Below are positions 7,398-60,689 of a stretch of DNA of 64,000 nucleotides, in pieces. The position numbers were made by a program, and so were the translations under genes. The DNA is from Pseudolabrys sp. GTDB taxonomy: Bacteria; Pseudomonadota; Alphaproteobacteria; Rhizobiales; Xanthobacteraceae. The notes under the pieces were generated by a model, which saw only the letters and a program-made list of their open reading frames with translations, was not told where the DNA came from and did no database searches. The stretch spans positions 558,001 to 622,000 of the forward strand of contig JARYIJ010000001.1 in assembly GCA_029980465.1 (NCBI GenBank). Direction: 5' to 3'. Position 1 is the first letter of the stretch. Each line of letters begins with the position of its first letter.

Positions 7398-8327
7398 TCA
7401 TGCCTCGTTGCCCTTCTTTTTGGGCTTCTTCAGCAAGTTCTTCATCGCTTCGGCGCGGGCCGCGGCGGCGTCATCCGACAGACGCACGGTGACGCGATCC
7501 GACAAACGCAGATCGACGACGGTGATGTCGCGCGACAGCAGCTTCTTGTCGCGGTCGAGATCGATGAGCGTCTGCAGCGCGCGATCGACGCCGCTATCCG
7601 GCAGCTTGATATCGACGCCGCTGTCGAGCCGCACGTTCCAGCGGCGGTCGGCGACCAGCACGGCCGCATTCATCGCGCTGCGGATCGCCGGATAGCGATC
7701 GAGCATGGCGAGGAAGCCGCGCGCCTGCTTGGCGGCGCCGTCGCCGACGACGAGCGGCAGCTTGCGGAAACGATTGCCGGTGAAGTCCTCGAGCACGGTG
7801 CCGTCGTCGGAGATCACCGCGACGCGGCCGTCCTTTTGCCACAGCGCCAGCGGCTTGCGTTCGGTGATGCTGATGTGCAGGCGGCCGGGATAAAGCTTGA
7901 GCACCGTGGCGTCAGCGATCCACGGATTGCTCATGAGGTCGCGACGCGCGCTCGCGGCATCGAGGCAAAGCAACGACGATTCATCGCCGACTCCGGCGGC
8001 GGCCAGCACCTGATTGCGCGTGAGTTGGTGTTCGCCGCTCAACGCGACGGAGGTGACGCGGAAGCCGGCGCTGTCGGAGACGCGATCGCAGGCGCGATGC
8101 AACTCGGCGGCGATCTCGGGCCCGTGATGGCCGGCCGCGATGCCGTAGCCGATGCTGGCGGCGACGACCATCGCCGCGGCGATCGAGCCGGCGCCGCGCG
8201 GAATATCGAGGTCGAGCAGCGGAACGACACGGCGGCGAACGAAGCGCTTGAACCGGCGCGCGCGTCCCGATGCCTCCAGCCAGTCCGGCCGGGTCAGCGG
8301 TTGAGCGAAGCGTCCCTGAAGGTCCAT
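7398..8327 (-). CDS. ftsQ: Cell division protein FtsQ
   Basis: FtsQ is a bitopic inner-membrane protein that links early and late division proteins. With the start at 8327 the product is 309 aa. It has a basic cytoplasmic N-terminus, one membrane segment (SIAAAMVVAASIGYGIAAG), and a periplasmic POTRA domain (FRVTSVALSGEHQLTR) followed by the FtsQ beta-domain (WIADATVLKLYPGRLHI). A Lys-rich tail closes it. An ATG 23 codons upstream (8396) is also in frame; 8327 (MDLQGRFAQPL) fits family N-termini better. The DUF559 cassette separates it from ddlB, so it probably has its own promoter in 8328-8560. Confidence 0.93.
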   Translation of the reverse strand: MDLQGRFAQPLTRPDWLEASGRARRFKRFVRRRVVPLLDLDIPRGAGSIAAAMVVAASIGYGIAAGHHGPEIAAELHRACDRVSDSAGFRVTSVALSGEHQLTRNQVLAAAGVGDESSLLCLDAASARRDLMSNPWIADATVLKLYPGRLHISITERKPLALWQKDGRVAVISDDGTVLEDFTGNRFRKLPLVVGDGAAKQARGFLAMLDRYPAIRSAMNAAVLVADRRWNVRLDSGVDIKLPDSGVDRALQTLIDLDRDKKLLSRDITVVDLRLSDRVTVRLSDDAAAARAEAMKNLLKKPKKKGNEA

Positions 8328-8418
8328 CGCAGGCTTTCGTGCGCAAATCCGGTTCGACACGCGCAAACGCGCAGCAGCCTCGCAGCAAGGCGCCACCTGC
8401 CAGTCTTGGGAGGATTTG

Positions 8419-8442: not shown

Positions 8443-8568
8443 GATCGGGAACGAAGATTACCGGCGAATGTCGCTTTCGCTCACGGCCCAGCGAAGCGGT
8501 GAGCGAATTGACGGCGCGGACCTGAGCCGGGCCGCGGGTCAGGGGGGTTATTAGGTAAGCACCGGCTT

Positions 8569-9038
8569 ACCTCTCCCCGCGGGCGGGGAGAGGTCGGGAC
8601 GACTAAGCGCCAGCTTTGTCGTCCCGGGTGAGGGGGTCGTGCAAGGCCGCAACGATCTGCTCCAGAACTCCTTCGACGTTGCCAAGGACATCGTTATTCC
8701 AGAAACGCAGGACCGTGTATCCACGACATTGCAGCCATTCAGTGCGAGTAATGTCATCCTGATTTTCGGCGTGCTGACCGCCATCGACCTCAACGATGAG
8801 TCTTTGTTCGCGACAGGCAAAGTCAACAATGAAGGGACCGATCGACGCTTGGCGCACGAACTTGAAGCCGCCGAGTGTACGCGATCGCAGCCGGTTCCAA
8901 AGCTTTACTTCGGCAATCGTCGAATCCCGTCGCAAGCGACGAACGACTTTTGTTCGGATTGGTTTGGCGCCACGCATACGGTGATCCCCCTCACCCGGCG
9001 CCTTCGGCGCCGACCTCTCCCCGCGTGCGGGGAGAGGT
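8569..9038 (-). mobile_element. DUF559 cassette A: nuclease-like gene enclosed by inverted palindromes
   Basis: Read on the gene strand, the cassette starts with a 26-bp palindrome (ACCTCTCCCCGC / GCGGGGAGAGGT, 9013-9038), a small GGCGCC stem-loop and GGTGAGGGGG. The DUF559 gene follows, and then the mirror image: CCCCCTCACCC, a CGGGACGAC / GTCGTCCCG stem and a second palindrome (8569-8594). The stop codon of the gene lies inside the 3' repeat. It sits between ddlB and ftsQ, which are normally adjacent, so it looks like an insertion. No target duplication was identified. Confidence 0.6.
8603..8977 (-). CDS. DUF559 endonuclease-like protein (copy A)
   Basis: The 124-aa product matches the DUF559 family, related to the Vsr/PD-(D/E)XK nuclease fold. 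A basic helical N-terminus (RRLRRDSTIAEVKLWNRLR) is followed by the core FKFVRQASIGPFIVDFAC, the acidic strand LIVEVDGGQH, and the C-terminal VLRFWNNDVL. The Asp of VDF and the Glu/Asp of EVDG are the likely metal ligands. No biological role is established for the family; nuclease activity is inferred from the fold. The last residues (DPLTRDD) are encoded by the flanking repeat. Start ATG at 8977. It lies between ddlB and ftsQ on the same strand. Confidence 0.85.
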   Translation of the reverse strand: MRGAKPIRTKVVRRLRRDSTIAEVKLWNRLRSRTLGGFKFVRQASIGPFIVDFACREQRLIVEVDGGQHAENQDDITRTEWLQCRGYTVLRFWNNDVLGNVEGVLEQIVAALHDPLTRDDKAGA

Positions 9039-9049
9039 ATAGGACCGTA

Positions 9050-9979
9050 TTACCGCCCGAGCGAGGCGTCCTCGACCATCCAGCGCACCAGCTCCGGGAA
9101 CGGCCGGCCGGCGTGAACCGCCAGATCGGGCACCAGCGAGGTCTGCGCCATGCCGGGCTGGGTGTTCACCTCGAGACAGACCAGCCCCTTTGTCCCTTCG
9201 AGGCTGTCGTCGTAACGGAAGTCGGCGCGCGATACGCCACGGCAGCCGAGCGCCTTGTGCGCCGCCACCGACAGCCGGCGCACCTCCTCGTAGACCTGTG
9301 GCGGGATCGGCGCCGGCAGCAGATGCTTGGAGCCGCCGGGGGCGTATTTCGACTCGTAGTCGTAGAACTTCGTCGTCGGCACGATCTCGATGACACCGAG
9401 CGCCTCGTCGCCCATGACGCCGCAGGTCAATTCCTTGCCGGGGATGTAGGGTTCGACCAGCACCATCTCGCCGAACGGCCAGTCCGGCCGTGTCAGTTCC
9501 TGCGGCGGATGCGTCATGTCCTCGCGCACGATGAAGACACCGACGCTCGAGCCCTCCGCCACCGGCTTGATGACATAGGGCACCGCGATCAGGTGGCGCC
9601 TGGCCGCCTCCATGCGGGTCGCAACGAGCCCGCCCGGCACCGGCACGCCGGCGGCGCGCAGCACGCTCTTGGCGATATCCTTTTGTATGGCCAGCGCCGA
9701 CGCCAGCACGCCGGAATGCGAATAGGGAATGCCGAGAATCTCCAGCATGCCCTGCAACGTGCCGTCCTCGCCGGGACGGCCGTGCAGGATGTTGAGCGCC
9801 ACGTCCGGCTTGAGGTCGCGCAAGGTGAACGCGATGTCGCGGGTGACGTCGACGCGGCTGACCCTGTAGACGCCGAGGCTGTCGAGCGCATCGGCGCAGG
9901 CCTTGCCGGACCACAGCGACACCTCGCGTTCGGCCGACCAGCCGCCCATGAGGACGGCGACGTGTTTCTTGCCGCTCAC
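9050..9979 (-). CDS. ddlB: D-alanine--D-alanine ligase
   Basis: This ATP-grasp ligase makes D-Ala-D-Ala, the dipeptide that MurF adds to the peptidoglycan precursor. At 309 aa it has normal length. Visible family features are the N-terminal VAVLMGGWSAEREVSLWSG, the LHGRPGEDGTLQG segment, the ATP-grasp lysine strand YVIKPVAEGSSVGVF, and the C-terminal CLEVNTQPGMAQTSL metal-binding strand. It lies between murB and ftsQ as in other Rhizobiales, but is separated from each by an inserted accessory gene and palindromes. Confidence 0.96.
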   Translation of the reverse strand: MSGKKHVAVLMGGWSAEREVSLWSGKACADALDSLGVYRVSRVDVTRDIAFTLRDLKPDVALNILHGRPGEDGTLQGMLEILGIPYSHSGVLASALAIQKDIAKSVLRAAGVPVPGGLVATRMEAARRHLIAVPYVIKPVAEGSSVGVFIVREDMTHPPQELTRPDWPFGEMVLVEPYIPGKELTCGVMGDEALGVIEIVPTTKFYDYESKYAPGGSKHLLPAPIPPQVYEEVRRLSVAAHKALGCRGVSRADFRYDDSLEGTKGLVCLEVNTQPGMAQTSLVPDLAVHAGRPFPELVRWMVEDASLGR

Positions 9980-10901: not shown

Positions 10902-11018
10902 CCCTCTCCCGTTCACGGGAGAGGGTGGCGAGCGCCGGTTGGCGCGAGCCGGGTGAGGGCGTTTCGGTGATAAAGCAAAGACCCCACACCCCGACCCTCT
11001 CCCGCAAGCGGGAGAGGG
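10902..11018. repeat. Gene-less REPIN-like pair of palindromes
   Basis: Two copies of the CCCTCTCCCG / CGGGAGAGGG palindrome (10902-10925 and 10995-11018) face each other around GGGTGAGGG ... CCCCACACCCC. The unit order is the same as in the DUF559 cassettes, but only about 20 bp replace the gene. It sits between the convergent DUF4239 gene and murB and could also act as a two-way transcription barrier. Confidence 0.75.
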
Positions 11019-16222: not shown

Positions 16223-16329
16223 ACCCTCCCCCTTGTGGGGAGGGTCGACCGCCAAAGGCGGTCGGGGTGGGGGTCCATCGAGGAAGACAGCTACCCCCCT
16301 CCCCAACCCTCCCCCACAAGGGGGGAGGG
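16223..16329. repeat. Gene-less REPIN-like palindrome pair in the murG leader
   Basis: Two facing palindromes (ACCCTCCCCC / GGGGAGGGT, 16223-16245; and ACCCTCCCCCAC / GGGGGGAGGG, 16307-16329) enclose a GACCGCC-AAA-GGCGGTC stem, GGGGTGGGGG and a mirrored CCCCCCTCCCC. It has the same order as the 10902 element but belongs to a CCTCCCCC sequence subtype. It occupies most of the ftsW-murG spacer. Confidence 0.75.
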
Positions 16330-17603: not shown

Positions 17604-18085
17604 CCCTCTCCCGTAAACGGGAGAGGGACAGATCGATTCGCCGAAAGGCACGGACTACTCCCTCTCCCGCTTGCGGGAGAGGGTTGGGGTGAGGGCATGC
17701 TGAATTTCCTCAAGCACGCCATCCCGATTGGAGAGCACATCGTTGTTCCAGAAGCGAAGGACACGCCATCCTTCCGCGGCCAGGAAAGCGCCGCGTTTGA
17801 GGTCACCGGCACTCTCGACATGCTGGCCACCGTCGAGTTCGATGACGAGCCGCTGCTGGATCGAGGCAAAGTCCGCAATGTAAAGCCCGATCGGCACTTG
17901 TCGGCGGAATTTTGCGCGACCCAGCCGGCGGTCTCGTAATAAAAACCACATCGCGCGCTCCGCGTCGGTCGCATTGCGCCGCAGTCTGCGCGCTATGTCT
18001 CGCTTTTGTCCGTTACGCATTCCCTCACCCACCCTCGCTCGGCTTCGCCTCTGCTCGGGCACCCTCTCCTGCAAGCGGGAGAGGG
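17604..18085 (-). mobile_element. DUF559 cassette B: nuclease-like gene enclosed by inverted palindromes
   Basis: On the gene strand the order is: palindrome CCCTCTCCCG / GGGAGAGGG (18062-18085), a GCCCGAGC...GAGCGAGGG linker, GGGTGAGGG directly before the ATG, and the gene. Then come CCCTCACCCC, a second palindrome (17660-17683) that encodes the gene's last codons, and a third palindrome (17604-17627) followed by the same GCCCGAGCGGAGCGAGGG linker. It interrupts the normal murD-ftsW adjacency. The plan is the same as cassette A at 8.6-9.0 kb. Confidence 0.6.
17655..18020 (-). CDS. DUF559 endonuclease-like protein (copy B)
   Basis: With start MRNGQKRDIARRLRR at 18020 the product is 121 aa. 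It shows the DUF559 pattern: a basic N-terminal helix (NATDAERAMWFLLRDRRLG), FRRQVPIGLYIADFAS, LVIELDGGQHVES and VLRFWNNDVLSNRDGVLEEI. The Asp of ADF and the Glu/Asp of ELDG are the likely catalytic acids of a PD-(D/E)XK-like fold. The last residues (TPTLSRKRERE) come from the palindrome, an unusual case of a repeat supplying the C-terminus and stop. It is clearly related to copy A at 8603 but divergent, so not a recent local duplication. Role unknown. Confidence 0.85.
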   Translation of the reverse strand: MRNGQKRDIARRLRRNATDAERAMWFLLRDRRLGRAKFRRQVPIGLYIADFASIQQRLVIELDGGQHVESAGDLKRGAFLAAEGWRVLRFWNNDVLSNRDGVLEEIQHALTPTLSRKRERE

Positions 18086-31460: not shown

Positions 31461-31899
31461 CAGTCGGCCGGACGGCCGCTCCGGCCAACGCCGAAAGGCG
31501 GCCGGGGAGGAAAGTCCGGGCTCCATGGACAAACGATGCCGGATAACGTCCGGCGAGGTCCGGTCTTTCGGGAGCGGGCTTCAGGGACAGTGCCACAGAG
31601 ACGATACCGCTTCCCCACCCCCGACCCTCCCCGCTTGCGGGGAGGGATGAAGGGTAGGGCAGCAAGGGTGAAAAGGTGCGGTAAGAGCGCACCGCGCTGG
31701 CGGCAACGTCGGCGGCAGGGCAAACTCCATCGGGAGCAAGACCGAATAGGAACGGCGTGGGCTCACGCCCGGTCAGTCCGGACCAGCCGTTCGGGTAGGT
31801 TGCTGAAGGCGCCGGGCAACCGGCGTCGCAGATGAATGGCCGTCACGCTCGCGGCGCGAGTCGCGGGCCATACAGAACCCGGCTTACAGGCCGGCTGAT
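31461..31899 (+). ncRNA. rnpB: RNase P RNA (type A)
   Basis: This is the catalytic RNA that trims tRNA 5' leaders. Canonical blocks are visible: GAGGAAAGTCCGGGCTCC near 31509 (P3-J3/4-P4), GTGCCACAGAGACGATACCGC near 31590, AAGGGTGAAAAGGTGCGGTA near 31666, GGTAGGTTGCTGAAG near 31795, and CAGAACCCGGCTTACAGG near 31873 (P4 3' strand). P1 pairs CAGTCGGCC at 31461 with GGCCGGCTG at 31889. The length is about 439 nt. The P12 arm is built from a palindrome of the DUF559-cassette family. Ends are set from P1 pairing and may be off by a few bases. Confidence 0.95.
31613..31647 (+). repeat. REP-type palindrome forming the P12 arm of rnpB
   Basis: CCCCACCCCCGA followed by CCCTCCCCGC-TT-GCGGGGAGGG is one unit of the family that also flanks the DUF559 genes. 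Compare the second half of the 10902 and 16223 elements. Here it lies between ATACCGC and the AAGGGTGAAA block of RNase P RNA, where the variable P12 stem is expected. Confidence 0.75.
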
Positions 31900-59687: not shown

Positions 59688-60689
59688 ATGACGAACCCAC
59701 ATCAGGGCGAACGCATTGCCAAGGTGATGGCCCGCGCCGGGCTGGCCTCGCGCCGCGAGGCCGAGGCTTGGATCGCGGCCGGTCGAGTCAGCGTCAACGG
59801 CCAGCCGATTTCGTCGCCCGCGCTCAACGTCACGCCCGCCGACAAGATCACCATCGACGGCGCGCCGCTGCGCCAGCGCGAGCGCGCGCGGCTATTCCTC
59901 TATCACAAGCCGCGCGGCCTGGTGACGACGCATTCCGACCCGCAGGGCCGCCCGACCATCTTCGCCGCGCTGCCGAAAAACCTGCCGCGCCTCATCAGCG
60001 TCGGCCGGCTCGACCTCAACACCGAGGGGCTGATCCTGCTCACCAACGACGGCGGACTGGCGCGCACGCTCGAACTGCCGCAGACGGCCTGGCTGCGGCG
60101 CTATCGCGTGCGCGCGCTCGGCCGCGTCACGCAGGACGCGCTCGACAGATTGCGCAACGGCGTCACCGTGAAAGGCGTGCGCTACGGCCCGGTCGAGGCG
60201 ACGTTCGACCGCGAGCAAGGCGCCAATGTCTGGCTCACCATTGGCATCCGCGAAGGCAAGAACCGCGAGGTGCGCAACGTGCTCGAGCATCTCGGCCTCA
60301 AGGTGAACCGGCTGATCCGCATCGCGTTCGGGCCGTTCGAGCTCGGCGCGCTGGAGCGCGGCGACGTGCAGGAGCTGACCACCGACGTTATCCGGACGGC
60401 GCTCGGCGACCTTGCCGCGGGCGTCGATCTCGAAGGCCTGGTGCTCGAGCATGATGATACCCTCACCCTTTGCGCCGCAGGGCGGCGCTCTTCCCTCTCC
60501 CGCAAGGCGGGAGAGGGTGGCGAGCGGCCGACGCTCTCGCGAAAAACGCCACCCGATTTCCACCGCGAGCCGGGTGAGGGCCAATTCGCGAAAACGAGAA
60601 GCAAAAAGCCACGCCGCGACCGCAGCGGCGGGCCGCGGCCGTCACGGCCCAAACCGTCGAGCAAGCCCGCGCCGCGGGGCGAGCGCTGA
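59688..60689 (+). CDS. rluB: Large-subunit-type pseudouridine synthase RluB
   Basis: The 333-aa enzyme has an N-terminal S4 RNA-binding domain (RIAKVMARAGLASRREAEAWIAAGRVSVNG) and the RsuA/RluB catalytic domain with YHKPRGLVTTHSDPQGRPTIF and VGRLDLNTEGLILLTNDGGLA, where the Asp is catalytic. RREGKNREVRNVLEHLGLKV-type residues follow. It makes pseudouridine in 23S rRNA (position 2605 in E. coli RluB). After residue 257 a palindromic repeat has been read in frame (about 41 codons), followed by a basic Lys/Arg/Pro tail. It overlaps rsmD by one base. Confidence 0.93.
   Translation: MTNPHQGERIAKVMARAGLASRREAEAWIAAGRVSVNGQPISSPALNVTPADKITIDGAPLRQRERARLFLYHKPRGLVTTHSDPQGRPTIFAALPKNLPRLISVGRLDLNTEGLILLTNDGGLARTLELPQTAWLRRYRVRALGRVTQDALDRLRNGVTVKGVRYGPVEATFDREQGANVWLTIGIREGKNREVRNVLEHLGLKVNRLIRIAFGPFELGALERGDVQELTTDVIRTALGDLAAGVDLEGLVLEHDDTLTLCAAGRRSSLSRKAGEGGERPTLSRKTPPDFHREPGEGQFAKTRSKKPRRDRSGGPRPSRPKPSSKPAPRGER
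60459..60581. repeat. REP-type palindrome inserted in frame within rluB
   Basis: CCCTCACCC, a GCCGC / GCGGC stem, the palindrome CCCTCTCCCGC / GCGGGAGAGGG (60493-60517), a TGGCGAGCGG...CCGCGAGCC stem and GGGTGAGGG follow each other. This is the unit order of the DUF559-cassette repeats. It adds about 41 codons (TLCAAGRRSSLSRKAGEGG... to ...REPGEGQ) to the C-terminal part of the enzyme without breaking the frame. Confidence 0.85.

Follow-up and report, generated by a model that had tools for sequence, protein, structure and literature searches.

Intrastrand triplex motifs (TM) have been described in more than 260 bacterial genomes by Holder et al. 2015 (PMC4666352), in whose account the E. coli motif forms a stable triplex in vitro, as judged by CD and NMR, and occurs as five inverted pairs with two linker types to each pair. 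The same account found stable triplex formation in cells unsupported and states that transposase or integrase remnants were never found around the motif. No word beginning with endonuclease, nuclease, DUF or ycjD occurs in its main text, and a search of the open-access literature (subscription papers and preprints being outside its scope) returned no paper linking TM/PIT-type motifs to DUF559. A TM-type 34-mer was present in 3788 of 5426 E. coli genomes. The name PIT for intrastrand triplex motifs reportedly comes from Hoyne and Maher. Short inverted repeats paired with an enzyme are known from the REPIN-RAYT system (Bertels and Rainey 2011, PMC3116915). As for DUF559 proteins, one gene has been placed in the EDxHD homing family (PMC9403480), and the Caulobacter DUF559 protein VsrA is described as required for the SOS response in cells without a cytosine methyltransferase (PMC12907096).

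The window analysed here is a stretch of 64,000 nt from Pseudolabrys sp., contig JARYIJ010000001.1 (C1 of the window's genome), positions 558,001-622,000. Cassette A (8569-9038 of the window) consists of a 124-aa DUF559 gene bracketed by two inverted end units. The mirrored units around the gene in the preliminary description were borne out, in the order palindrome, hairpin, box on one side and box, hairpin, palindrome on the other, as was the position of the DUF559 stop codon inside the 3' end unit. The features of the window are as follows.

7398..8396, minus strand: ftsQ, flank of cassette A
8569..8594, plus strand: outer palindrome of the cassette A 3' end, arms ACCTCTCCCCGC/GCGGGGAGAGGT
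8595..8626, plus strand: variable linker hairpin of the cassette A 3' end, containing the DUF559 stop codon
8603..8977, minus strand: DUF559 gene, 124 aa, predicted Vsr/EDxHD-type nuclease (profile and structure model)
8627..8636, plus strand: third-strand box GGTGAGGGGG of the 3' end, mirror of the purine arm GGGGAGAGG with one A as T
8986..8995, minus strand: third-strand box of the cassette A 5' end, reading CCCCCTCACC on the plus strand
8996..9012, minus strand: variable linker hairpin of the cassette A 5' end
9013..9038, minus strand: outer palindrome of the cassette A 5' end
9050..9979, minus strand: ddlB, flank of cassette A
10902..11018, strand not applicable: gene-less inward-facing motif pair, MITE-like
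16224..16329, strand not applicable: gene-less inward-facing motif pair of another subfamily
17655..18085, minus strand: cassette B, the second in the window, with a DUF559 ORF at 17655-18074 and ends at about 17660-17696 and 18024-18085

The cassette B palindrome (CCCTCTCCCGC) belongs to a different subfamily from that of cassette A. At up to three mismatches, the cassette A palindrome occurs at two places in the 64-kb window and at none in 100 shuffles. Genome-wide, the same search finds 17 places, comprising two pairs 441-444 bp apart that enclose DUF559 genes, four pairs 94-143 bp apart and five single copies. More triplex motifs, one overlapping pair and one single, lie at 31614-31658 and 60461-60517 of the window; a shuffled half of the window, the control for these further motifs, contained none.

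Read from the outside inwards, each end unit comprises a pyrimidine arm, a loop, a purine arm, a linker and a purine box. The preliminary description had treated the GGTGAGGGG box as a motif of its own; it is instead a mirrored copy of the purine arm of the palindrome, in which T replaces A at some positions (GGGGAGAGG to GGTGAGGGG in cassette A; GGGAGAAGG to GGATGAGGG, GGGGGAGGG to GGGAGGGGG and GGGAGAGGGG to GGGGTGAGGG in other copies). In the antiparallel purine motif, a third strand places G on G-C and A or T on A-T, and the relation of arm to box, including its A-to-T changes, fits this rule. The cassette ends are therefore predicted to fold as intrastrand purine triplexes, and their layout of a hairpin with a purine arm followed by a mirrored third strand is that of the TM/PIT motif, not that of the REP palindromes to which they had been likened. 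The TM/PIT motifs share the pyrimidine arm, the purine arm, the mirrored purine third strand and the many copies per genome, but they have been described as solo or paired repeats, whereas the cassette motifs are the ends of a gene-bearing element and many have long hairpin linkers. RIME-type repeats of rhizobia are palindromes with similar arms, of CCTTCTCCCC type.

Linkers are either 0-5 bases long (often TTA) or longer. A stem of at least five pairs is present in 68.7% of 166 longer linkers (6-45 bases), against 5.4% after shuffling, and only 3 of 69 elements have identical linker sequences at their two ends; usually the sequence differs yet still pairs. A long linker upstream with a short one downstream outnumbers the reverse arrangement, 23 to 8 (p 0.011). 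The Rfam family whalefall-1 (RF01762) scored 25.5 bits at window positions 8567-8635, below its gathering threshold of 37, and the end unit was not retained as a whalefall-1 RNA on this weak resemblance. At L245 1796-1852 the resemblance was weak too (21.4 bits, cut-off 37). The whalefall-1 'RNA' may itself be an end unit of the DUF559-cassette kind.

The cassette A gene matches DUF559 (PF04480, E 8.6e-40), and NGO0050 (3hrl, E 1.5e-24) is the only solved structure that it matches by sequence. A structure model of the nuclease resembles Vsr and the homing endonuclease I-Bth0305I, the latter being the best structural match apart from DUF559 itself, and the predicted structure has the fold of an EDxHD/Vsr-like catalytic domain. 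Residues E22, D51, E62, D64, H68 and D74 are invariant across 30 sequences and were compared with EDxHD by letters only; the nuclease is under purifying selection. The match of the model to Vsr agrees with the earlier assignment of DUF559 to the Vsr nuclease group, and the protein is predicted to be a Vsr-like nuclease. It could on that ground be a Vsr-type mismatch endonuclease of host repair, its flanking motifs being terminators or spacers, and the role of Caulobacter VsrA in the SOS response (PMC12907096) would suit such a function. We regard this as very improbable: it leaves unexplained the paired inverted ends, the presence/absence states and the co-variation of arm and nuclease described below, and work cited in Holder et al. 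2015 (PMC4666352) saw no promoter or terminator activity of the motifs.

The association between motif and DUF559 was scored with a finder whose threshold was the 99th percentile of 532 dinucleotide shuffles. The first set comprised 135 hits in 134 loci from the window's genome, its relatives, a phylum-wide draw and E. coli MG1655; the motif was present at both ends in 99, at one end in 22 and at neither in 8, and 6 lay at a contig edge. A further 18 weaker matches were added (both ends 0, one 2, none 14, edge 2), while ten fragments with E 8e-10 or worse were left out. The total of 153 DUF559 copies thus divides into 99 with both ends, 24 with one, 22 with none and 8 cut by a contig end, so that, of the 145 copies whose flanks are complete, 46 have no motif on one side (24) or on either side (22). 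Control intervals shifted by 1050 bp at the first set's loci (245) gave both ends in 1, one in 6 and none in 238, and an inverted-repeat test with 287 control intervals had the same outcome. Protein similarity alone yielded at least 556 loci, whose best 80 formed a second set; its counts were 64 with both ends, 12 with one, 3 with none and 1 at an edge (64 of 79 bracketed). Flanking units on DUF559 genes elsewhere, a check that the preliminary description had proposed, were thus found on most copies in both sets.

Two-ended copies in the second set include loci from Chloroflexi SAR202 (L286), Nitrospirota (L268, L275), Dadabacteria (L309), Rokubacteria (L260, L299), Omnitrophota (L243) and Doudnabacteria (L314); loci from these phyla are mostly MAGs, as are many loci overall, and may be misbinned. 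Ten of the 44 plasmid loci found were scored, with both ends in three (one barely above threshold) and one end in seven. Plasmid copies from Synechocystis, Picosynechococcus and Deinococcus (three loci) were set aside as examples, having G-rich hairpins but marginal motif scores.

Ten DUF559 matches in the window's genome correspond to nine genes, two of the matches being halves of one gene with an internal TGA. Eight of the nine are bracketed by eye; the finder gives seven with both ends, L003 with one and L009 with none. A bracketed gene at L008 (C1:1328849-1329162) contains an internal TGA and is on that account taken as a decaying copy. Copies of a long form, with an open frame of about 400 aa or more, number 21 (both ends 0, one 1, none 20) and account for 20 of the 22 motif-less copies. 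This form, seen once in most genomes of the window's genus (L009 at C1:261726-262040, L049-L053, L348-L362), is vertically kept and is possibly a domesticated relative. The remaining two motif-less copies are L179 and E. coli ycjD. For ycjD the status of a bracketed cassette was rejected, since the finder gives no motif; by eye, the region downstream of the gene (L125 6200-6435, E. coli MG1655) has the remnant of a decayed palindrome and, apart from it, a triplex motif, and looks as if it were an eroded cassette.

Inward-facing pairs 200-900 bp apart contain DUF559 in 77 of 79 cases, at loci chosen for DUF559. This count bears on the proposal that triplex motifs break unaided and that host recombination shuffles the DNA between them. 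Greater variability around the motifs in E. coli (Holder et al. 2015, PMC4666352) is in keeping with such fragile sites, and solo palindromes are compatible with host slippage; breakage of this kind would nevertheless have to account for the near-constant presence of DUF559 within those pairs and for an entire cassette lying in frame within a coding gene (L156, below), and we find it barely credible.

Arm, third strand and nuclease co-vary at the level of sequence, with different end types on different nucleases, in permutation tests whose significance is overstated by the shuffles because close relatives were not thinned. The fit of a third strand to its own arm was 0.968, against 0.854 with permuted arm types (300 permutations, maximum 0.932; 123 ends), and the last eight arm bases were alike at both ends in 72.6% of 157 elements (permuted mean 16.9%, maximum 26.1%). 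On a FastTree phylogeny of 151 proteins, arm class changed 43 times for the left end and 43 times for the right end, where shuffling gave means of 76 and 78 (minimum 69 and 71). For the 51 rows of the window's genus, 13 and 8 changes compare with shuffled means of 29 and 28 (minimum 24 and 20). Linker class changed 48 times on the tree, against 67 after shuffling (minimum 57).

A survey of 120 genomes, with DUF559 called at E<=1e-20 and the motif by a GAGAGG-type pattern, found DUF559 in 25 and the motif in 29: both in 21, DUF559 only in 4, the motif only in 8 and neither in 87. The link is significant by genome (Fisher p 2.8e-13) and by genus (17, 3, 7 and 51 in the same order, p 4.4e-9). The four DUF559-only genomes have other end types, which in three of them lie at a single side of the gene. 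A reversed-pattern control gave zero save in one genome (2+2). Pattern copies number 31 in the window's genome, alongside its nine genes, and 303 in genome G097.

These data bear on whether another enzyme, such as a Y1/RAYT transposase, moves the motif pairs while DUF559 is cargo that retains them. Gene-less pairs outnumber gene-bearing ones for the cassette A palindrome in its own genome (four to two), and 8 of the 29 motif-bearing genomes have no DUF559 at E<=1e-20, as a passenger might predict. Against this, the window's genome gave no PF01797 (Y1_Tnp, RAYT-type) match at E<=1e-8, and across genomes Y1_Tnp is not linked to the motif (12 of 29 with it, 51 of 91 others, p 0.20), so that Y1/RAYT was rejected as the general cause; moreover, nuclease type co-varies with end type, and DUF559 occupies nearly all wider inward pairs, albeit at DUF559-centred loci. 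A passenger role for DUF559 is accordingly judged quite unlikely.

Comparison with the known systems follows the same lines. Like REPIN-RAYT, the cassettes present their repeats as short inverted palindrome pairs with many gene-less copies and one enzyme type per repeat type; unlike it, their enzyme is a predicted Vsr-like nuclease and not a Y1 transposase, their ends are triplex motifs, and the DUF559 gene, of which a genome has several copies, is located within the pair. REPIN-RAYT repeats carry a GTAG-type tetranucleotide beside the palindrome; base counts outside both-end elements were T-rich, with no G-T-A-G run. The phrase 'nuclease-based counterpart of REPIN-RAYT' in the preliminary description fits, because nuclease and repeat types appear to co-evolve and Y1 transposases do not track the repeats. 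IS200/IS605 elements also have structured DNA near their ends; their TnpA is a Y1 transposase, whereas the cassette element encodes DUF559 only.

At the site of cassette A, DUF559 is present in 1 of 30 ddlB loci, the window's own. The cassette had been said to split genes that are normally adjacent, and ftsQ indeed lies at the ddlB end or at most 1 kb off in 20 of the 29 relatives' loci compared, all 20 without the cassette; in the other nine, ftsQ was not found within the stretch covered. Junctions that lack the cassette, which the preliminary description had thought worth seeking, therefore exist here and at the sites below. Exact insertion boundaries at ddlB-ftsQ were dropped, the relatives being too diverged. 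At L108, a small two-gene insertion, by eye a HigB/HigA-like pair, lies downstream of ddlB at this junction.

At a junction in the G129 genus whose genes were named hppD and hmgA by eye, the 30 loci closest to the query, of 91 matching genomes, contained DUF559 in 9 (L210 cut by a contig end), a gene-less pair in 2 (L194 cut), a single outer palindrome in 5, another insertion in 2 and none in 12. The solo palindromes have flanking bases in common with the full elements, most clearly in L193, L196 and L207 (by eye). Another junction, from the G110 genus and again covered by the nearest 30 loci, of 142 matching genomes, had DUF559 in 12 (8 and 4, of two end types), gene-less insertions in 10 (L319 cut; the finder gives L335 one motif), a solo palindrome in 3, an empty site in 3 and a mixed longer insertion in one (L326), L325 being unclassified. 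At L156 (1180-2103) a whole cassette lies in frame within an L,D-transpeptidase gene, where two YkuD stretches flank DUF559 and a 308-aa frame is open throughout. Fourteen of 16 family genomes match this site: one is the L156 cassette, ten are uninterrupted (length differing by at most 9 bases), a gene-less pair (L224) or a lone motif (L234) occupies the same point in two others, as read by eye, and the second part is missing from L227. The in-frame motifs and cassette of L156, L224 and L234 are read as peptides, for example LPLGEGRGEG.

Full cassettes, gene-less pairs, single motifs or palindromes and empty sites thus occur as alternative states in two genera and one protein gene, with the empty orthologous sites and gene-less derivatives expected of insertion sequences and MITEs. 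The junction comparisons alone are compatible with gain or loss. Among 94 elements, no target-site duplication length of 3-8 bp stands out, and 2-bp duplications are weakly in excess (18 of the 94, against a permuted maximum of 13). Azospirillum plasmids were rejected as a source of empty sites, as seven records covering most of the query each match DUF559, and a flank comparison on S. meliloti pSymB was dropped as uninformative because the right side is an ISRm16 copy.

Occupation of the same junctions in many related species, with two end types at the G110-genus junction, raises the alternative of homing, in which alleles that are empty or hold a solo motif would be cut by the nuclease and homologous recombination would copy the cassette into that very site, spread to new sites being rare and accidental. 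The structural match to I-Bth0305I points the same way. However, the PDB entry of that enzyme names a mobile-intron protein, and in 20 cassette loci no Rfam family, introns included, reached gathering score; structured DNA ends are found instead. Copies at many unrelated sites (the window's genome has nine genes and 31 matches to the pattern, G097 has 303 matches) also argue for movement to new sites and not for allelic homing alone, which we consider unlikely.

From the anatomy of the ends, their recurrence around DUF559, the concerted variation of nuclease, arm and third strand, and presence and absence at orthologous sites, all of them read directly in the DNA, we conclude that the DUF559 cassette is a mobile element; that its nuclease moves it via triplex ends is the best inference. 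Cassette A would be one copy, of about 450-600 bp, whose sole gene, a predicted Vsr-like nuclease, likely moves it via its predicted triplex ends, a reading to which we assign a probability of roughly two in three. When a strand becomes single during replication or repair, each end would fold into a hairpin with a third strand. The nuclease would recognise this fold and nick beside the palindrome, and the freed segment would be copied to a new site by host repair or replication, host functions being needed because a hydrolysing nuclease has no evident means of strand joining. Gene-less motif pairs would be moved in trans. Since the two palindromes also repeat each other directly, the middle would be deleted by slippage or recombination across the pair, leaving a solo palindrome, and the solo palindromes at two unrelated sites fit this step.

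We give about even odds to the broader proposal that DUF559 cassettes are a new class of transposable element, each using one small triplex-reading Vsr-like nuclease, and that the many orphan TM/PIT motifs, present from E. coli to cyanobacteria, represent gene-less copies and footprints of this class. TM/PIT motifs have no known origin; with a candidate autonomous element and enzyme now named, that question becomes directly testable. We know of no other mobile element whose ends are defined by three-stranded DNA, so that, if the nuclease reads the triplex, this would be the first such element known to us, and a widespread family lacking a function would gain one. A mobile cassette would also explain the source of a long-puzzling family of bacterial repeats.
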